In this document: piece by piece, positions 7,383-15,401 of the stretch
Numbering within the stretch: the first letter of the stretch is position 1
How the letters are laid out: each line of letters opens with the position of its first letter
The notes under the pieces: model-generated
Told to the model about the DNA's origin: nothing
The model's input: the letters and a program-made list of their open reading frames with translations, nothing else
Database searches by the model: none
Position numbers and translations under genes: made by a program
Assembly (NCBI GenBank): GCA_012519515.1
Contig: JAAYQC010000044.1
Coordinates: forward strand, 1-33,481
Direction of reading: 5' to 3'
DNA: 33,481 nucleotides
Origin: Bacteroidales bacterium
GTDB lineage: Bacteria > Bacteroidota > Bacteroidia > Bacteroidales > VadinHA17

Positions 7383-8360
7383 TCATTTTACAAGCTCCAC
7401 AACTGCATATCTTGATATTTTCCAGAATTCTCCGGGATCCAGTATAGCAATCGAACTTATCGTGTTTTCATCCTCTTTGACCAGTTCATACGACCCTGCC
7501 GGATGTTCGGTGACGAGCTTTACTTTCCTGGAATTATTGACCGGGATGCTCTTCAGTTCGGAGATATTCACTTCGGTGAAGATGCTTTCATCGAAATTGT
7601 CCTTGATTGATTCCTGTCTGCCGATTCCGAGAAATCCGCCTTCCTTGTAGAGGATTCCCTTGTCTCTCAGGTCCTTGTAGGTGCCCGACACGAGGAAAGC
7701 CTGATTCAGCATGTATGTCTGGGTGTTTATGGTTTCCACCTTTCTGTTGAGTGTGTCGTTGAGAGCCACCATTGTTTCGTTGAGCTGTTCGATCTCGAAA
7801 TCCTTGTTGTCGAGGTTTGCCTTAAGTATGGCGATATCGTTTTCATAATTTTTCATGGAAGTCTCGAGCTCGGCGACCCTGGTCTGCAGACCGGTGATGG
7901 TGATTCCGGATTGTTTGAGCTGGGCATTGAGACTGGCGATCTTTTTCCTGTTTTCATCAAGCAGGGAGTTTATCGTCTTGATGTCTTCCATTATCTGCTG
8001 CCTTTTGTCGGCCGATACTTCCGAACCGGCTGAGTTGACCGTGATAAGTTTCTCCTTCTCCTTTATCATGCGAAGGTTTTTTTCGATCTCATCGAAAGAA
8101 GTGAGCCAGTCGTTGAGTGTGGAGTCGCGTTCGGAAAGCTGCTGGCTGAAGCTTACCCTCTGGTTTTCCATAAGAGTCAGCTGCTTATTGTGATCCTTCC
8201 TGTACAGTGACCAGCCAAGCAGGCCGAGTCCGAGCAGAACGGCAAGGCCTATAATTGCAGTGATGAGCACTCCTTTTGATTGCCCCTCCTTCCTGGCCTC
8301 CTCAATCCTGTTCATAGTAAGTATGTCTTCATTCTGTGTTTTAGCATCATTGTTTTCCAT
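7383..8360 (-). CDS. Membrane-anchored coiled-coil protein with conserved C-terminal domain
   Basis: 325 residues from the ATG at 8360; an in-frame TTG at 8366 is less likely. A short charged N-terminus is followed by one transmembrane helix at about residues 29-51 (GVLITAIIGLAVLLGLGLLG). A long coiled coil runs to about residue 220. A compact C-terminal domain follows (SGTYKDLRDKGILYKEGGF, GIGR, FDESIFTEVNI, DPGEFWKISRYAVVEL), which I recall from many Bacteroidota hypothetical proteins, some annotated as Cbp1-type collagen-binding adhesins. I would not claim adhesion here: the topology suggests an inner-membrane anchor with an extracytoplasmic stalk. A promoter with good spacing lies just upstream. 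Confidence 0.8.
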   Translation of the reverse strand: MENNDAKTQNEDILTMNRIEEARKEGQSKGVLITAIIGLAVLLGLGLLGWSLYRKDHNKQLTLMENQRVSFSQQLSERDSTLNDWLTSFDEIEKNLRMIKEKEKLITVNSAGSEVSADKRQQIMEDIKTINSLLDENRKKIASLNAQLKQSGITITGLQTRVAELETSMKNYENDIAILKANLDNKDFEIEQLNETMVALNDTLNRKVETINTQTYMLNQAFLVSGTYKDLRDKGILYKEGGFLGIGRQESIKDNFDESIFTEVNISELKSIPVNNSRKVKLVTEHPAGSYELVKEDENTISSIAILDPGEFWKISRYAVVELVK

Positions 8361-8386: not shown

Positions 8387-8417
8387 CAAATCTTTTGTTT
8401 TCATCATATATGACAAA
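8387..8417 (-). promoter_or_regulatory. Bacteroidota-type promoter for the coiled-coil gene
   Basis: On the minus strand TTTG (8414-8417) is followed after exactly 19 bases by AAGATTTG (8387-8394), one mismatch from TAnnTTTG. This is the best-spaced -33/-7 pair in the window and lies about 27 bases before the ATG. Confidence 0.5.
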
Positions 8418-8468
8418 GCACGGGCCGGAATGAACACCATAAGGTAAAACACAGATTATTAATCGGAT

Positions 8469-8494: not shown

Positions 8495-8723
8495 GCTCAT
8501 TTTGATAGAAAAATTATCATTTTGGGAAAAATCAGGAGTATTTAGACCCAACCCCGGGGATTTGTTTTGATGACCATTTCACCGACTTACCGTACTTACG
8601 ATCCTCCATCCCTAAGTCTCCGATGCCTTTCAGGACTCACAGATTCACACAGAGGTTTACTTACGATTCTCTCCCATTCTCCCCTTCACCATTCGCTCAA
8701 TCACTCCTTCATCTTCCCGTGCC
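8495..8723. other. 3' untranslated spacer with no supported feature
   Basis: The stretch between the activator stop and its terminator is pyrimidine-rich on the plus strand. It has no convincing reading frame, RNA fold or repeat. Together with 8361-8494 it makes a 363-base gap whose only supported contents are the promoter and the terminator listed here. Confidence 0.5.
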
Positions 8724-10073
8724 TTACTCTTTATCTTCTTTCAGCATCCTGTAAATTGTCGAAATGCCTATATCGAGTTTTTCCGCGGTAAGGGGGATAT
8801 TGTGGTTATACTTTTTAAGTGTGGCTTTAAGGATCCGCATTTCATGTTCGCGCATTGTGAGGTCGGCGTTGTCGTGACTTAAAAGATCTTCCGCAGTATC
8901 TATTGCAAAATCATTCTCTGTTATCTCATCATTGACCGAGAGGGTGAGGGCAAGCTCCACGAGCGATTTGAGTTCCCTTACGTTTCCAGGGAAGGAGTAG
9001 GACATCAGCTTTTTCCTGGCTCCTTCAGAGAAGGCTTTCATCGGTATTCCGTTTTCCTTTGAGAAATTTTCCGCGAAATGTCTGGCAAGGATGAGTATGT
9101 CGCTCGACCGCTCGCGGAGAGGAGGGATGTCGATCGGCAGTCCCATAAGACGGTAGAACAGATCTTCCCTGAAGTTTCCCTTCCTGATCTCTTCCCTGAG
9201 ATTCCTGTTTGTGGCGGTGATAATTCTACAGTCGGTGTGTATGGGCTTGTTGCTTCCTACCCTGACGATTTCCTTTTCCTGCAATACTCTCAGCAGCTTT
9301 GTCTGCAGGTTTGGGTCCATTTCTCCTATTTCATCCAGAAAAAGAGTTCCGCCGTTTGCCTCCTCAAAGCGTCCGATCCTTCTGAAGCTCGCTCCAGTGA
9401 AGGCTCCCTTTTCATGTCCGAAGAGCTCACTTTCAATAAGTTCATTTGGGATGGCCGGGACGTTCACCGCTACAAATGGCTTGTCGCTCCGTTTCGAATT
9501 GTAGTGGATTGCCTTAGCTACCAGCTCCTTTCCGGTACCGGTCTCGCCCGTTATTATTACAGTAATGTTGGTCTCTATTGCCTTGTCTATCAGATCGTAA
9601 ACATTTCTTATGGCAGCACTTTCGCCGAGGATGGTCTTGCTGTAGGAGTATTTCTTCTGAACTTCCTTCCTGAGGGTGGATATTTCCTTTTTCAGGTTAA
9701 TATCCCTGGTAAGGTTCTGTATGGTATTGAGAAGGCGTTCCTTGATGTCGTTCGATTTTGTAATATAGTCGTAGGCACCCATTTTGAGCAGAGTCACGAC
9801 CATTTCAATATCTTCCTGCTCTGAGATCAGGATAACCCTGATATTTTCATTTTCCTGCCTAATTCTCTTAAGCACTTCGAGACCTGACAGATCGGGCAGC
9901 CTGTAATCGAGGGTTACGATATCGGGCTCTTCGCTGAGGCAGGCGAGGAAATCGCGGGCGTTCAGAAAGCCCTTTACCTCATAGTCGGGATTCAGCGACA
10001 GGGTATAAACGAGCAGTTTGTTGTACCACTCATTGTCTTCAACTACAAATATCCTGACAGGTTTTTCTGGCAT
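8724..10073 (-). CDS. NtrC-family sigma-54 activator response regulator
   Basis: 449 residues in three parts. The receiver (1-120) has the acidic pair at VEDNE, phosphoacceptor Asp56 (IVTLDYRLPD) and Lys106. The AAA+ domain (about 145-375) has Walker A GETGTGKE at 176-183, the sigma-54-contacting loop GAFTGA at 223-228, Walker B GGTLFLDEIG at 241-250, and FYRL and FPGNVREL motifs. A C-terminal Fis-type helix-turn-helix follows (LTAEKLDIGISTIYRMLKE). It should couple phosphorylation to open-complex formation by sigma-54 polymerase. It is the last gene of the operon, 81 bases after the hybrid kinase. Two -24/-12 type promoters in this window, one before its own operon and one before the Tyr-rich protein gene, are the obvious target candidates. 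Confidence 0.96.
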   Translation of the reverse strand: MPEKPVRIFVVEDNEWYNKLLVYTLSLNPDYEVKGFLNARDFLACLSEEPDIVTLDYRLPDLSGLEVLKRIRQENENIRVILISEQEDIEMVVTLLKMGAYDYITKSNDIKERLLNTIQNLTRDINLKKEISTLRKEVQKKYSYSKTILGESAAIRNVYDLIDKAIETNITVIITGETGTGKELVAKAIHYNSKRSDKPFVAVNVPAIPNELIESELFGHEKGAFTGASFRRIGRFEEANGGTLFLDEIGEMDPNLQTKLLRVLQEKEIVRVGSNKPIHTDCRIITATNRNLREEIRKGNFREDLFYRLMGLPIDIPPLRERSSDILILARHFAENFSKENGIPMKAFSEGARKKLMSYSFPGNVRELKSLVELALTLSVNDEITENDFAIDTAEDLLSHDNADLTMREHEMRILKATLKKYNHNIPLTAEKLDIGISTIYRMLKEDKE

Positions 10074-10154
10074 AGAGTGTCAGTTTCATAAATTACTGCA
10101 ATCGGCTCAGACTGCATCCCGAAAGTTAAAAAATCCGGATGGATTATCCTCGGT

Positions 10155-12569
10155 TCAGCTGATTTTTGCTATTTCTTCTTCAACAAGCCGTTTTATTATC
10201 CCGAATTCCGCGGCAGCATTCTCAATCATTGCCACTGTCTGACCGGTATTTCCTTCCTTTCCTATCGACCGTTCAATTCCGGCAAGCATATCAAAGAGCT
10301 TAATGGCGCCGATATGCCTGCAAGGCGGCTGTATCTTGTGTGAAAGGTTTGCGGTGTTTTCCCATTCTTCCCTTGCGGCGGCTACGCTCATATCATTCAA
10401 ACCCGAGGCGGTGGTTGAGATGAATGATTCCAGCATCTGTTTTACGAAAACCCTGTCGCCTCCCGCAAGGTGATACAGGTTGCTAAGGTTGATATCTGAT
10501 ATTTCTCCGGCTGATTTCTCAGGGGCGGTCTCAGGTTTAGCTGAAGCGCTTCCGGCGTTTATACCCGTGGCTTCAATTATTGCCGAGAGGAGCATCTTTT
10601 CTGAAAATGGTTTTGGCATGAAGGCATTGATGCCTGCCTTTCTGAATTTTTCCTGTTCTTCATTTCCCGGAGCAGCCGAGGTGAAGATAACAGGCATCTC
10701 CTTTTCGCTGATTTGCATTTCCTCCCTGATGAACCTTGTCGTTTTCAGTCCGTCAATACCCGGCATCCGCATGTCCATAAAGACCAGATCGAATTTTTCT
10801 GTTTTCAGCATCTCGAGGGCAGTCATACCGTTCTCTGCCAGCCTGAAAGCAGCTTTCCATCTTCCAAGGATCTTACTGAAAAGCAAGCGGTTGTATTCTT
10901 CATCATCCACCACCAGTATTTTTTTCCCTTTAATCTCCCGCGGAGCGGCAACAGGGGCTTCCTGACCGGCTTTCACCAGTTTTTCATCGCCAACCGGATA
11001 TGGTATACGGCATATTATGGTCGTACCCTCATTCTTTTTGCTTTTTACCTCAATTTTACCTCCATGCAGGTTAATCAGGCTTTTCACTATTGATAAGCCG
11101 AGTCCCGTTCCGCCGTATTTCCGGGTGGTGTTCATCTCTGCCTGGGTGAAATCGTCAAATATTACTTCCAGCTTCGATTCATCTATCCCTATTCCGGTAT
11201 CGGCAACGCTCAGCACGAGTTCTACTTCTTTGTTGTTTTTCGGATTGTGGCTTACCATCATGGACACTTCGCCATTGCTTGTGAATTTGATTGAATTCCC
11301 GGCAAGATTCAGGAGAATCTGTTTCAGACGGTAGGGATCGCCCACGATCACGGGGGGAGTACCGGGATCAATCTTATGGCTCAGTCGGTTATTATTCTGA
11401 GCCGCTTTTCCGGAAAGCATCTCGTGAACATCCTCCAATACACCGGCAATTCTGAAATGCACTTTCTCGAGAGTGAGCTTATCGGTTTTCAGTTTTGAAA
11501 AATCGAGAATATCATCAATTATTCTCAGGAGATGGTCGGAAGATGATTTTATTACATTCAGCGATTTTGCAGTCTCGCCGCCGCGGTTTTCATGAAGAAG
11601 CTGTTCCGTAAAGCCCGAGATTGCCGTGAGGGGAGTTCTTATCTCATGAGTGATGTTAGCCATGAAAAGCTCCCTGGTTTTTGCCAGTTTTTCAGTTTCA
11701 TCCCTCGACTTTTCAAGGGCTGCCTGGTAAGCAAGGGCGTTTCTGGCATATTTGAAGACTACATATATCAACAGGATGCCCCAAAGCGCCCCGGTAACAG
11801 CCACCAGCACAAGACCTCGGTAGGTTTCGTCAGCTACTTTCCTTGCTTCCACGGCCTTCAGCCCTATCTGCTGGTAGACTTCATTCTCCATGCTTGAAAG
11901 GAGGTCGTAGAATTTTTCGGTAATCACGCTGCTGTTTCTTGCCAGCTGAAGTTCCCTGACAGCCTGCTGGTCTCTTGTCAGCTGGTTTTTCTCAATTATC
12001 TCTTCGTAATTGTTGCCTGTTTCCTTTCTGACCGGGGTATTGTCGGAGCTCAGTCTGAATTCCCTTTGTGTTGTACCAGTCCCGGCAAGTTCAGTTGATG
12101 ACGAATCGAGATGTATTGAAAGTCTTCGAAGGTTTCTTATTACATTGTCGTCCCTCGAGAGAACAAGCAGTTGTGTCCATATTGAGATGTTCCTGTCAAT
12201 CAGAAGCTTTATGGTGTCGGTTTGGGCAAGGAGGACAGAATCGTTGTTGCAGGCTTCCCTCAGGGTACCGATTTTTTCATCAATCCCCGAGATGAATGTG
12301 TAATACGGCCTTATATCGGCGGGATTGCGGCTTGCCATGTATATCCTGACGCTGTTTCCAGCTTTCTCTATGTCGGTTGAAATTTCCCTTATGCCGACCA
12401 GTCTCAGTTCAGGCGACTCGTCAATCTTAATTGAAGACACTATTGATGAAAGGTTGCGGTAGAACATATAAAAAGTTGCCGACAGAAGTAATACTGCCAG
12501 GATCATCAGTAATCCGACCCTTGTACGGATCGAATTCCTGCCGGGCTCCTTTACGGACGGATCGCTCAT
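10155..12569 (-). CDS. Hybrid sensor histidine kinase with receiver and Hpt domains
   Basis: 804 residues. Two membrane helices (about 17-37 and 251-275) flank an extracytoplasmic, mostly helical sensor of about 210 residues without a known motif. HisKA has His308 (NITHEIRTP); HATPase_c has N-box GDPYRLKQILLNLAGNSIKFT, G1 DTGIGID and G2 GGTGLGL. A receiver follows with Asp599 (LVFMDMRMPG) and Lys653, then an Hpt-like helical domain with His744 (LSHKIQPPCRHIGA). The usual Lys-Gly after the Hpt histidine is replaced by Gln-Pro-Pro-Cys-Arg. A His-Asp-His-Asp phosphorelay to the two flanking receivers is the natural reading. The start overlaps the stop of the upstream receiver gene by ATGA. Confidence 0.94.
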   Translation of the reverse strand: MSDPSVKEPGRNSIRTRVGLLMILAVLLLSATFYMFYRNLSSIVSSIKIDESPELRLVGIREISTDIEKAGNSVRIYMASRNPADIRPYYTFISGIDEKIGTLREACNNDSVLLAQTDTIKLLIDRNISIWTQLLVLSRDDNVIRNLRRLSIHLDSSSTELAGTGTTQREFRLSSDNTPVRKETGNNYEEIIEKNQLTRDQQAVRELQLARNSSVITEKFYDLLSSMENEVYQQIGLKAVEARKVADETYRGLVLVAVTGALWGILLIYVVFKYARNALAYQAALEKSRDETEKLAKTRELFMANITHEIRTPLTAISGFTEQLLHENRGGETAKSLNVIKSSSDHLLRIIDDILDFSKLKTDKLTLEKVHFRIAGVLEDVHEMLSGKAAQNNNRLSHKIDPGTPPVIVGDPYRLKQILLNLAGNSIKFTSNGEVSMMVSHNPKNNKEVELVLSVADTGIGIDESKLEVIFDDFTQAEMNTTRKYGGTGLGLSIVKSLINLHGGKIEVKSKKNEGTTIICRIPYPVGDEKLVKAGQEAPVAAPREIKGKKILVVDDEEYNRLLFSKILGRWKAAFRLAENGMTALEMLKTEKFDLVFMDMRMPGIDGLKTTRFIREEMQISEKEMPVIFTSAAPGNEEQEKFRKAGINAFMPKPFSEKMLLSAIIEATGINAGSASAKPETAPEKSAGEISDINLSNLYHLAGGDRVFVKQMLESFISTTASGLNDMSVAAAREEWENTANLSHKIQPPCRHIGAIKLFDMLAGIERSIGKEGNTGQTVAMIENAAAEFGIIKRLVEEEIAKIS

Positions 12570-13000
12570 CGATCCAAAGATACCGAATATTTATTCTCTA
12601 TATGTTGCTGAAGATAGAGACCGCAGAGAGCAGGGGCAAATTCATCCTTTACCACGAAATAATCGTGGGGTATTGTGTGAAGTTTCTCTTTTACCGATTT
12701 CGATTGTGAAAGCAGGATCACCATGGCATCGCAGGAGTGTTCCTTGAGGACCTTTATCACGTGACCGGCATTCAGGCCGTCGCCAAGGTAATAATCGATG
12801 AAAACGGCGTCATAATTTGAACTGAGGTCGCCCGCCTTGATCTTCTTCATATACTCAGCAGCATTGGTAAAGGAGCGTAGTACCAGCTGATACTTGCCCC
12901 GTGTCAGGATACCGTTGAGGCTTTGCTGTATGGCATTCGACAGGAGGTTGCTGTAATACTCGTTGTCTTCAATAACAAGAATGCTGATCGTTTTTTTCAT
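12566..13000 (-). CDS. Single-domain response regulator (CheY-like receiver)
   Basis: 144 residues consisting of one receiver: acidic pair at IEDNE (residues 11-12), phosphoacceptor Asp69 (YDAVFIDYYLGDG) and the conserved Lys in FVVKDE. There is no output domain. Its N-terminus (ILVIEDNEYYSNLLSNAI) closely parallels that of the NtrC-type protein (IFVVEDNEWYNKLLVYTL), which suggests both dock on the same phosphodonor. It is the first gene of the operon, is translationally coupled to the kinase, and lies behind a sigma-54 promoter. It may act as a phosphate sink, a relay intermediate or a protein-interaction output. Confidence 0.92.
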   Translation of the reverse strand: MKKTISILVIEDNEYYSNLLSNAIQQSLNGILTRGKYQLVLRSFTNAAEYMKKIKAGDLSSNYDAVFIDYYLGDGLNAGHVIKVLKEHSCDAMVILLSQSKSVKEKLHTIPHDYFVVKDEFAPALCGLYLQQHIENKYSVSLDR

Positions 13001-13033
13001 GGAGGGGTGGCTTGTTGAATTCTACAATTAATA

Positions 13034-13049
13034 TCCAAGTCCCGTGCCA
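13034..13049 (-). promoter_or_regulatory. Sigma-54 (-24/-12) promoter of the phosphorelay operon
   Basis: The minus strand reads TGGCACGGGACTTGGA. The -24 element TGGCACG is exact, spacing is correct, and the -12 element is TTGG instead of TTGC. The predicted start is near 13023, about 22 bases before the ATG at 13000. The downstream operon encodes a sigma-54 activator, which suggests autoregulation. Confidence 0.7.
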
Positions 13050-13059
13050 CAATCTGCCA

Positions 13060-13076
13060 AAACAGGCAACCTGTTT
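13060..13076. promoter_or_regulatory. Palindrome upstream of the sigma-54 promoter, candidate activator site
   Basis: AAACAGG and CCTGTTT form a perfect 7-3-7 inverted repeat centred about 45 bases upstream of the predicted start. Fis-type activators of the NtrC class bind dyads, so this is a candidate enhancer site, though closer than the usual 80-150 bases. Confidence 0.4.
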
Positions 13077-13188
13077 ATAATTTGCTTAAAAAAAGAAAGT
13101 TAAGATATCAACAATGCCCTTTGCAGAGGATAGTAATCATGTTAAATTCTCATTATGGGAAAAGCAGTTTCTTAATGAAAAAAGATAC

Positions 13189-13402
13189 GGGGCTCAGGGC
13201 ACAGGGCGGAAGAACGGCTTGCGGCGAGCGGCTGGCGGCAAAAGCGCAGGGGGCAGGTCTTGCCGTCTTGCCGTCTTGCCGTCTTGCGGTCTCTTCTAAA
13301 GCGGCACATCGCCTATAATACATCGCCTATAATACATGACTACGCTAAACACTAAACACTTTAATGGCAATTAACAATTAACAATGAGCAATTAGCAATT
13401 AT
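13189..13402. repeat. Mosaic of short tandem repeats (locus A), downstream of the Tyr-rich protein gene
   Basis: This part of the 423-base gap 13001-13423 is built of repeat words in order. GGGGCTC AGGGCAC AGGGCGG opens at 13189. Four 8-mers follow at 13256-13287 (GGTCTTGC, then three CGTCTTGC), then GGTCTCTT. A 14-base duplication CATCGCCTATAATA lies at 13307-13334, ACGCTAAACACTAAACACT follows, and five heptamers of the CAATTAA type lie at 13368-13402. The same words recur in the same order and orientation on the other side of the neighbouring gene. No convincing open frame or RNA fold lies here. Confidence 0.85.
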
Positions 13403-13423
13403 TAATTAACTGCGTACCGCTAT

Positions 13424-15073
13424 TTACCGTCTTCCCGATGATCCGGAGGAGGAGCTTCTGGATGATCCTGAACTGCTGCTTCGGCCTGAAGAGCTGCCTG
13501 AAGATACATGTGACGAACTGCGGCTGGGTGATGATGACCTGCCTATTGAGGAACTGGCCGAGCTACGACTGGGAGAGGATGACCTGCTCATAGAGGAAGC
13601 GGCCGAGCTACGACTGGGTGTTGAAGGTCTGGAAACTGAGGACCCGGATGAACTGCGGCTGGGAGATGATGATCTGGCAGACGGAGCGGAAGGCCTTGAT
13701 GAGGCTGAGCTTGACCTGCTGTAGCTCGACTGCGATCGGGGAGCAGTTACCTGCGACCTCTGGGTTGAGACGGGTCTTTGTGCAGTCTGCGGCCTGGAAC
13801 TTGAACTTACCGGAGCTGATCTTTGTGCAGTTGTGGGTCTCTGGGTTGTTGCAGGCCTTTGTGCAGTTGTGGGTCTTTGAGTCGTTACGGGTCTCTGTGC
13901 GGTCTGCGGTCTGGAGCTGGAGCTAACCGGAGCTGATCTCTGAGCTGTTGTGGGTCTCTGAGTTGTTGCAGGTCTCTGTGCAGTTACAGGCCTTTGAGTC
14001 GTTGCTTGTCTCTGACTTGTTACCGGTCTCTGAGTTGTTACCGGCCTCCGTGCAGTCTGGGCTGAGGTAGTGGCCTGTCTGTTTGTAGTTGATGAGGCGC
14101 TTCTCCTGACCGTCGACTGGCTCTGATCGCTAACCGGTCGTCTTGTGGTATTTGACTGAACAGCATTTGAACGCTGGGTTGAAGACGACCTTCGCGTGGC
14201 ATCCGAAGAGGACGCCCGGTAATCGCTGCCTCGTCTGGTCTGACTCAGGCTGGCATAGTGCGATTCACCCACTCTTCTCATATCGGGGCGCGAGTAAGTA
14301 TCCCTGTAGCGGCCTTCCTGCACTCTGCGTGAGTACATTGTTGAATGCGACCTGATGCGGGTGTAGTAGAAGTCGTTGTACCTGTAGTACCTGATACGGT
14401 CCCAGCGCCTGAACATCACATAGTAATGATTGTGAATATTGTAGTAGTGGAATCCGTAGTAGTAGTGGTAGTAGTACGGACGCCAGGGACTCCAGTAGGA
14501 GGGATAATAGCCCCAGTACCATGTTGAGTGCCAGGGGATGTAGCTTGAAAGGTAGATGAATCTTACCACAGGCCAGTCGGCAACCAGATGGATGGTCACC
14601 CTTCTTCCCCCGGTGTAGCCCGGGTTGTATCTTACTGAATAGTAGTTGTCATAATCGGGCTCGATTATGTAGTTCCTGCCGTAGAGAGCCTCGTCGCCCA
14701 CGAGCTGGATGTTCACAGTGCCGTCGGAGAACCTCTCAACGATAAACACCGCGACATCCTGCGTCTCATAGTTGTTGAGCGCCACCCTGAGGACGATGTT
14801 GTGAACACTTCCGTCTACATAGTCATGCACTGTTATATAGTCGACATAATTATCGCCGTTCAGATCGAGGTTGTTTACCCTCAAATCCGGATCGTTAAGC
14901 TTTCTTTCGAATTCCTCGAGGGTCTGCGACTCCTGGAAGAGGTTCATTACCGCGTAAAGATTGAGATTATCTCCGGGCAGTCCAAGATAATCGTCAGGGT
15001 AACTTCTGGCGGTCAGAGTGGCTCCCGCTGTCATCAATACTGCAAGGATAGTGGTTATTATATACTTTTTCAT
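13424..15073 (-). CDS. Exported Tyr-rich protein with Ser/Arg/Thr repeat tail, under a sigma-54 promoter
   Basis: 549 residues. A signal peptide (about 1-22) is followed by a conserved globular N-domain (about 25-140: PDDYLGLPGDNLNLYAVM, LEEFERKLNDPDLRVNNLDL, DVAVFIVERFSDGTVNIQLV). This domain holds a partial calcium-loop-like Asp70-Leu-Asn-Gly-Asp-Asn-Tyr-Val-Asp78. I recall similar N-domains in Bacteroidota hypothetical proteins but know no function. Residues 175-260 are extremely rich in Tyr, Trp, His and Arg. Residues 300-440 carry TTQRP/TAQRP repeats, and 440-549 are almost entirely Ser, Arg, Pro and Gly. The very basic, disordered tail suggests binding to polyanionic surface polymer or a matrix role; this is inference. 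It lies divergently from nothing and is transcribed alone. Confidence 0.85.
   Translation of the reverse strand: MKKYIITTILAVLMTAGATLTARSYPDDYLGLPGDNLNLYAVMNLFQESQTLEEFERKLNDPDLRVNNLDLNGDNYVDYITVHDYVDGSVHNIVLRVALNNYETQDVAVFIVERFSDGTVNIQLVGDEALYGRNYIIEPDYDNYYSVRYNPGYTGGRRVTIHLVADWPVVRFIYLSSYIPWHSTWYWGYYPSYWSPWRPYYYHYYYGFHYYNIHNHYYVMFRRWDRIRYYRYNDFYYTRIRSHSTMYSRRVQEGRYRDTYSRPDMRRVGESHYASLSQTRRGSDYRASSSDATRRSSSTQRSNAVQSNTTRRPVSDQSQSTVRRSASSTTNRQATTSAQTARRPVTTQRPVTSQRQATTQRPVTAQRPATTQRPTTAQRSAPVSSSSRPQTAQRPVTTQRPTTAQRPATTQRPTTAQRSAPVSSSSRPQTAQRPVSTQRSQVTAPRSQSSYSRSSSASSRPSAPSARSSSPSRSSSGSSVSRPSTPSRSSAASSMSRSSSPSRSSASSSIGRSSSPSRSSSHVSSGSSSGRSSSSGSSRSSSSGSSGRR
13751..13984. repeat. Two in-frame tandem copies of a 39-residue (117-bp) unit
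   Basis: Inside the Tyr-rich protein gene, residues 364-402 and 403-441 repeat the order TAQRPATTQRPTTAQRS, APVSSSSRPQTAQRPV, then T/S-TQR. Each unit is itself composed of TxQRP pentads and hexads. The copies are almost identical, indicating recent duplication and likely length variation between strains. Confidence 0.75.
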
Positions 15074-15112
15074 GACCTGGAGTTTTTGGAATTATTGCTT
15101 CTACTGATGAAT

Positions 15113-15128
15113 AGCAAATGCCGTACCA
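15113..15128 (-). promoter_or_regulatory. Sigma-54 (-24/-12) promoter of the Tyr-rich protein gene
   Basis: The minus strand reads TGGTACGGCATTTGCT, matching the TGGYACG-N4-TTGCW consensus with the invariant GG-N10-GC spacing. The predicted start is near 15102, leaving a leader of about 29 bases before the ATG at 15073, similar to the layout of the phosphorelay operon promoter. Confidence 0.8.
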
Positions 15129-15158
15129 AAAAAACAGAGGAAGGGTGCAGGGCGAAGA

Positions 15159-15328
15159 GCACAGGGCTCAGGGCTCAGGGCGCAGGGCACAGGGCACAGG
15201 GGGCAGTGACAGGTCTTGCAGGTCGTGCAAGTCGTGCAGGTCTTGCAGGTCTCTTACAATGAGCTTTACGCTAAACCCTGAACACTGAACCCTGAACACT
15301 GAACCCTGAACACTGAACATTAAACACA
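15159..15328. repeat. Mosaic of short tandem repeats (locus B), upstream of the Tyr-rich protein gene
   Basis: Three blocks follow one another. First are six heptamers GCACAGG, GCTCAGG, GCTCAGG, GCGCAGG, GCACAGG, GCACAGG at 15159-15200. Next are four 9-mers of the type AGGTCTTGC/AGGTCGTGC at 15211-15246, closed by AGGTCTCTT. After TTTACGCTAAACCCT come alternating heptamers GAACACT and GAACCCT at 15280-15321, giving a 14-base higher-order period. Word order and orientation match locus A. It sits directly upstream of the sigma-54 promoter, inside the 430-base gap 15074-15503, which has no convincing gene. Confidence 0.88.
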
Positions 15329-15401
15329 TACGCCTAAACATTTAACGCTAAACGTCTCGAACCTTGAACACCGAACTATCATCTGAGCCGCATGCCGTTC
15401 A

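Follow-up and report, generated by a model that had tools for sequence, protein, structure and literature searches.

The stretch of DNA analysed here, hereafter called the window, is the 33,481-nucleotide contig C211 of a Bacteroidales genome (the "own genome" below) of 3.2 Mb in 255 contigs. Its minus strand carries, in this order, the genes of a tyrosine-rich (Tyr-rich) exported protein, a stand-alone receiver (REC), a hybrid kinase, an NtrC-type activator and a coiled-coil protein. Sigma-54-type -24/-12 sites stand before the Tyr-rich gene and before REC, and we investigated the conservation of these sites among relatives and the activators that may act on them. The features of the locus are as follows.

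13424..15073, minus strand: Tyr-rich exported protein (translation, N-domain alignment, signal peptide read by eye)
12566..13000, minus strand: stand-alone receiver, REC (Response_reg match, orthologues compared)
10155..12569, minus strand: hybrid histidine kinase with an N-terminal sensor region, HisKA, HATPase, REC and a C-terminal Hpt-like motif read by eye
8724..10073, minus strand: NtrC-type response regulator, receiver-AAA+ (GAFTGA)-Fis helix-turn-helix (HTH)
7383..8360, minus strand: coiled-coil protein with a membrane anchor predicted by eye, last gene of the conserved block
15113..15129, minus strand: sigma-54-type -24/-12 site TTGGTACGGCATTTGCT before the Tyr-rich gene, pattern unique in the window
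13034..13049, minus strand: sigma-54-type -24/-12 site TGGCACGGGACTTGGA before REC, pattern unique in the window, present in 13/13 REC loci
13147..13161, minus strand: enhancer-like palindrome (upstream activating sequence) TTCCCATAATGAGAA of the REC operon, differing from TTCTCA-N3-TGAGAA at one position
8514..8528, minus strand: degenerate copy of this palindrome before the coiled-coil gene, two mismatches
8412..8427, minus strand: weak -24/-12-like site CGGCCCGTGCTTTGTC before the coiled-coil gene, aligned with sites in relatives

The original prediction for this stretch had called the Tyr-rich protein, REC, the hybrid kinase and the GAFTGA activator correctly, and both -24/-12 sites lie where it had placed them and are conserved among relatives. 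It did not mention the palindrome at 13147-13161, the degenerate copy at 8514-8528 or the weak third site at 8412-8427. Its description of the kinase as a kinase-Hpt protein holds for the kinase part; the Hpt part is an eye-read motif, SHKIQPPCRHIGA, which has no Pfam Hpt match at E ≤ 0.001. The stand-alone receiver match (Response_reg, E = 1.2e-4, 22.6 bits against a Pfam cut-off of 30.2) and the CHASE3 match of the kinase both fall below curated cut-offs. The 8724-10073 protein, in turn, has the features of an NtrC-family response regulator: a receiver, an AAA+ domain with GAFTGA and a Fis-type HTH.

How specific are the two sites? The bare GG-N10-GC core matches the window 219 times, with both strands counted, and this core alone is therefore no evidence for a promoter. 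The extended patterns are far more selective: TGGYAY-N4-TTTG has a single match in the window, the Tyr site, and TGGCAC-N5-TTGG likewise has a single match, the REC site. The intergenic tracts at 13190-13300 and 15150-15340 contain short repeated phrases, such as cagggcacaggg, ccgtcttgccgtcttg and gaacactgaaccctgaac.

The phosphorelay operon and its palindrome

The genes for REC, the kinase, NtrC and the coiled-coil protein stay together as a block among relatives, and the coiled-coil gene follows the NtrC gene wherever the contig reaches that far. The activator was detected in 15 of the 36 genus members, the own genome included (E ≤ 1e-100, with at most 28 candidates scored per genome), and additionally in G034, where the copy is cut by the contig end. 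Thirteen loci, including the window, were compared at REC, while loci without a REC match, for example L069 and L242, were excluded from the REC counts. The REC promoter consists of TGGCAY followed by TTGGA, or by TTAGA/TTAGGA in three of these loci. The "one deviation" that had been noticed in the -12 element of the window is thus real, and it is a feature of the family, the canonical C being missing in 13/13 loci.

Upstream of this promoter, TTCTCA-N3-TGAGAA is present in all 13 loci, in 12 of them exactly and in the window with one mismatch, and the distance from its start to the TGG of the downstream -24 box is 112-114 bp in every case. Because the palindrome keeps this position in 13/13 loci, the receiver/hybrid kinase/NtrC operon is very probably autoregulated, and the self-amplifying switch that had been predicted agrees with this arrangement of palindrome and -24/-12 site before REC. 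Among the named REC loci, which are partly the same records, the palindrome is found in 7/7 (six exact, L167 among them, and L244 with one mismatch). In L161 (G021:C202), a DnaJ/CbpA-like gene, as read by eye, starts on the opposite strand 137 bp from the REC-operon palindrome.

Of 14 loci compared at the interval between the NtrC and coiled-coil genes, 12 contain the palindrome again, 11 of them in exact form. Thirteen of the 14 have a -24/-12-like site further downstream, at a distance of about 100 bp in all but L070; the interval of L070 is broken by N, and that of L120, the fourteenth, is masked by N. In the window, both the palindrome (8514-8528) and the -24/-12 site (8412-8427) of this interval are degenerate. 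This palindrome copy does not rise above chance within the window alone, and the weak site CGGCCCGTGCTTTGTC occupies the same position as CGGCCTGGCATTTGTT in L118, CGGCCCGGCATTTGTA in L119 and clearer sites elsewhere.

Exact palindromes were further counted in 24 genus genomes. The 16 activator-bearing genomes hold 44 of them, and the remaining 8, in which no activator was found, hold 6; the reversed control pattern gave 3 matches across all 24. Thirteen of the 44 stand before REC, 12 before the coiled-coil gene, 4 before a gene of 60-69 aa and 1 before the gene of a 99-aa exported protein (L149). Seven belong to a 328-aa gene, at its 3′ end, and, with no promoter nearby, were taken as coding coincidence. 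The other seven lie elsewhere, and inspection covered these except G026:C85 and G019:C145. The extra palindrome of the 60-69 aa gene, seen in four genomes, is located 121-126 bp before a -24/-12 site. The relation of this small protein to CsbD is one of resemblance only: of two proteins tested, one scored 13.2 bits against a cut-off of 40 and the other had no match, and we did not adopt the name. The phosphorelay's own operon and the coiled-coil gene are better-supported candidate outputs than the Tyr-rich gene, and the earlier view of a self-contained module with one main output was too strong.

The promoter of the Tyr-rich protein family

The Tyr-rich protein is composed of an N-domain with a DLNGDNxxD loop, a Tyr/Trp region of the WYWGYYP type, TQRP repeats and a basic Ser/Arg tail whose last residues are GRR. 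The D-x-N loop is invariant in an alignment of 25 N-domains, and by eye it has the look of a calcium-binding loop. The N-domain of the window has no Pfam or NCBIfam match and no PDB sequence match at E ≤ 1, and its predicted structure (predicted local distance difference test, pLDDT, 71) has no PDB fold match at E ≤ 0.001. When 25 family members were compared with domain families, four families each matched 1/25, at E 0.01 or worse. A Cementoin Pfam match of the Tyr-rich protein was discarded, as it is located on the repeats and not on the N-domain. From the composition and the eye-read signal peptide, one may guess at a surface or matrix role.

The N-domain was detected in 27 of the 35 other genus members, and the own genome has three copies. 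Among the 34 homologous loci with a usable start (the truncated L071 was dropped), TGGYAY-N4-TTTG sits 48-59 nt upstream of the start in 32; the two loci without the site, L058 and L072, were left out of the motif searches and of the comparison, given below, of leader repeats in Tyr loci adjoining and not adjoining the phosphorelay. We then extended the comparison to named Bacteroidota records, keeping the 78 closest distinct loci from at least 586 coding matches. This set is not a random sample: it includes paralogues, consists mostly of Bacteroidales metagenome-assembled genomes (MAGs), with the cultured genera Prolixibacter, Mariniphaga, Maribellus and Tangfeifania, and overlaps partly with the genus set. 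The closest record kept, L167, is a Bacteroidales MAG with an N-domain identity of 88%.

A site within 100 nt of the start was found in 72 of the 78 named Tyr homologues, as compared to 10 of 697 other mechanically defined open reading frames (ORFs) of at least 150 aa in the same records. Seven of these 10 are themselves Tyr-family paralogues, leaving 3/690, one of which is htpG-like by sequence. Cultured species with the Tyr-type site include Prolixibacter bellariivorans (L178), Mariniphaga anaerophila (L235) and Tangfeifania diversioriginum (L216). Under a strict position test the Tyr site is present in 69/78 loci, and the letter at -12 is C in 25, A in 22, T in 18 and G in 4 of these sites. 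The canonical -12 C, which is present at the Tyr site of the window, is not required across the family.

In the own genome, the promoter pattern has 12 matches with the correct spacing, as compared to 5 for the reversed pattern and 8 for the wrong spacing (N5). Two of the 12, at the Tyr-rich gene and at the gene of a second protein, P0005, are each followed by a long ORF that begins 39-40 nt on; the leader of the window Tyr gene, between the -24/-12 site and the start codon, is 39 nt. Two more are followed by genes at 81 and 189 nt (L107, L113), and the remainder lie inside ORFs or have only a short or doubtful ORF, or none, downstream. The two Tyr paralogues of the own genome, on contigs C104 and C138, carry the same site class and miss the genome-wide pattern by its last letter.

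P0005 (G000:C117:41940, L109) is a second Tyr-rich, Ser/Arg-tailed lipoprotein, with the promoter pattern 40 nt before its start. Its homologues are present in the own genome and in 22/22 other genus genomes searched, and in 0/14 genomes outside the genus. Of 23 P0005 loci checked, 22 have a located start (L252 does not, and the fragment L268 was not included), and TTGGTAY-N4-TTTG lies 44-58 nt upstream in all 22, that is, in the own genome and 21 relatives.

A GAAG-N-CTTC inverted repeat occurs near the predicted 5′ end in 32 of 72 Tyr leaders, as compared to 0.14 expected from base shuffles, and it might be an operator or an mRNA hairpin. Among the leaders with this repeat, which span roughly positions -45 to -1 relative to the start codon, are those of L041-L046, L175, L192 and others.

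Sigma-54 and the htpG sites

Are the conserved sites sigma-54 promoters? They combine a TGGCAY-like -24 box with the correct spacing to a TTG at -12, and the own genome has an rpoN gene, as do 55 of the 60 genomes searched. The htpG genes provide an external reference, as the htpG start of Flavobacterium psychrophilum has been mapped to a sigma-54-type promoter (PMC9723704). Thirty htpG loci were tried, and in 22/22 starts located by motif, [CT]GGCAY-N4-TTTG is present 55-62 nt upstream. The eight remaining loci were re-probed: the site is present in five (L332, L334, L335, L340, L342), is accompanied by a doubtful start in L321 and L337, and was not found in L325. The htpG gene of the own genome carries the same site class, and the -12 letter varies among the htpG sites as well; a -12 element without C is therefore normal here and not disqualifying. 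On these grounds of sequence, we infer that sigma-54 uses the Tyr and REC sites. The GroES genes were not located with the motif used.

The htpG upstreams also carry a signal of their own. A TTTGTCA element is found in 17/20 of them, as compared to 0/72 Tyr and 0/22 P0005 upstreams (60-nt upstreams). Among L314-L343, a conserved TTTGTCAG-like element lies about 20 nt upstream of the -24 box; it is perhaps the enhancer of another activator.

Candidate activators of the two promoters

We propose, at a probability of roughly 0.6, that two sigma-54 circuits meet at this locus: one is the phosphorelay, local and autoregulated, and the other a regulon of wider reach that comprises Tyr-rich exported proteins and is served by another activator. 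REC, the hybrid kinase and the NtrC-type activator would form the phosphorelay. The phosphorylated activator would bind TTCTCA-N3-TGAGAA ahead of its own operon, about 110 bp before the -24/-12 promoter, as well as the second palindrome copy before the coiled-coil gene, and the bound activator would open the sigma-54 polymerase at the REC and coiled-coil promoters. The Tyr-rich protein would be one member of a larger sigma-54 regulon, made up of exported proteins that are Tyr-rich and Ser/Arg-tailed, and its promoter would not be dedicated to the neighbouring activator but would likeliest be driven by a protein encoded upstream of lptE.

The case for this last protein is as follows. G022 (99% complete) and G010 (98%) each have two proteins with a sigma-54 activator domain (E ≤ 1e-30): a GSFTSA protein, without HTH by eye, and an lptE-linked type with GSFTGA or GAFTGA. 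Both genomes retain Tyr and P0005 sites. By elimination in these two genomes, the lptE-linked enhancer-binding protein, which the own genome encodes upstream of lptE, is the likeliest candidate activator of the Tyr genes.

Several observations weigh against the proposal of two circuits. Motif searches for a common enhancer, before the Tyr genes and before P0005, gave only composition-driven or clade-specific patterns. The best motifs consisted of poly-pyrimidine tracts, GC-rich sequence or a block that close relatives have in common, and they were not accepted; their log-likelihoods exceeded those of the shuffles, but the shuffles preserved base content only. In G013 (92% complete), the P0005 site is present and only the GSFTSA type was found, which counts against the lptE-linked candidate. 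The own genome has zero exact palindromes, and 14 of the 44 exact palindromes have no evident promoter role. Its promoter counts are only modestly above the control, so that the evidential force lies in the position before one gene family and not in the number. The -12 C is present in just 25/69 Tyr sites, and recognition by something else is conceivable. Finally, rpoN was not found by profile or by the own RpoN protein in G010, G003, G035, G039 and G051, although sites of this class stand before Tyr genes, P0005 or htpG in these five genomes. The neighbour of rpoN, asnS, was likewise not found in four of the five, including G010, G003 and G035, which suggests assembly gaps but does not prove them.

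Does the neighbouring activator drive the Tyr gene after all? The original prediction had it drive both transcription units; the activator would then reach the Tyr promoter by looping from the palindrome about 2 kb downstream, or from solution. This account is supported for the activator's own operon, with palindrome and -24/-12 site in 13/13 loci, and not supported for the Tyr gene, where the palindrome with up to one mismatch occurs in 0/34 upstreams (up to 400 bp; at least one much shorter). The Tyr promoter is kept, moreover, in genomes such as G004, G009, G010, G012 and G022, in which no activator orthologue was found at E ≤ 1e-100 among the at most 28 candidates scored per genome, and the Tyr paralogues of the own genome share the site class on other contigs. 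The sites themselves are conserved (72/78 Tyr, 13/13 REC). Among the 78 named loci, the phosphorelay lies next to the Tyr gene in 9; the sequence extends 1 kb or more past the Tyr stop in 65 of the 78.

Within the genus, on the other hand, 10 of the 16 activator-bearing genomes have the Tyr gene immediately before the phosphorelay and in the same orientation. This adjacency speaks against separate circuits; it invites the idea of co-regulation and keeps the original prediction alive. The Tyr and REC promoters also belong to the same class, and the leader inverted repeat is found in 0/10 Tyr loci adjoining the phosphorelay but in 10/22 non-adjoining ones, as if regulation differed, a difference for which shared descent of the adjacent loci may account. 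With no palindrome found at the Tyr genes, a promoter that persists where no activator orthologue was found and few adjacent named loci, the single-module model is not the best reading, and we consider it unlikely, though still to be taken seriously.

A quite improbable alternative assigns the Tyr promoters to the GSFTSA response regulator, which would activate them from solution. Proteins of this type were read in the own genome and in 12/12 other genus genomes searched; L002 and its relatives (among L274-L295) represent this common AAA+ response regulator, with GSFTSA for GAFTGA. Read by eye, with no family search, it shows no DNA-binding domain and no HTH at its end, and the model would explain why no conserved enhancer stands before the Tyr or P0005 genes. 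However, GSFTSA departs from GAFTGA, which is held necessary for sigma-54 contact. A bolder scenario, in which an enhancer-less sigma-54 regulon spans the Bacteroidales, builds a tyrosine-rich surface layer and answers to a regulator without a DNA-binding domain, with the phosphorelay embedded beside one of its genes, is a long shot in our view.

Least probable of all, TTGG-N7-TTTG would be the binding site of a regulator unrelated to sigma-54: this would suit the dispensable -12 C, the five genomes with sites and no rpoN found, and the TAnnTTTG-like vegetative box that was read by eye upstream of many P0005 sites, but it must contend with both sigma-54 boxes at the right spacing and a narrow distance to the start codon, with the same site class before htpG, sigma-54-type in F. 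psychrophilum, and with a REC site of this kind 112-114 bp from an enhancer-like palindrome.

How does the proposed pair of circuits compare with known systems? Sigma-54 two-component systems of the NtrC/AtoC/ZraR type combine such activators with autoregulation. The phosphorelay resembles them in its receiver-AAA+ GAFTGA-Fis HTH activator, in the kinase encoded in the same operon and in the palindromic upstream site combined with a -24/-12 promoter. It differs in the hybrid kinase with a stand-alone receiver, the -12 element without the canonical C and the linked coiled-coil gene, and none of the 25 NCBIfam models listed is matched above its curated cut-off.

The sigma-54 (SM4) regulon of F. 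psychrophilum, in the same phylum, likewise has -24/-12 promoters, mapped in that case, and comprises chaperones including HtpG, envelope stress functions and exported proteins of unknown function; a sigma-54-dependent regulator beside LptE is a further shared feature (PMC9723704). Table 2 of that study, which is a selection, lists no Tyr-rich, Ser/Arg-tailed family. An in silico survey found chaperones, TonB and ABC permeases enriched in the sigma-54 regulons of Bacteroidota classes, with the consensus TGGCACN5-7TTGCT, and describes sigma-54 outside Pseudomonadota as little mapped (PMC12316311); the passages compared name no Tyr-rich exported family. Searches of the open literature, subscription papers not covered, gave no account of the module or of the Tyr-rich family.

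These results assign a well-delimited promoter to an exported protein family for which Pfam and NCBIfam gave no name, and one activator gains a candidate palindrome and a target list. Three promoter groups become separable by their upstream signal, namely TTCTCA-N3-TGAGAA, TTTGTCA and none found. The locus also calls for caution, as an activator that adjoins a sigma-54 gene need not control that gene. More generally, a conserved sigma-54-type promoter stands before a family of exported Tyr-rich proteins in Bacteroidales that are mostly uncultured.

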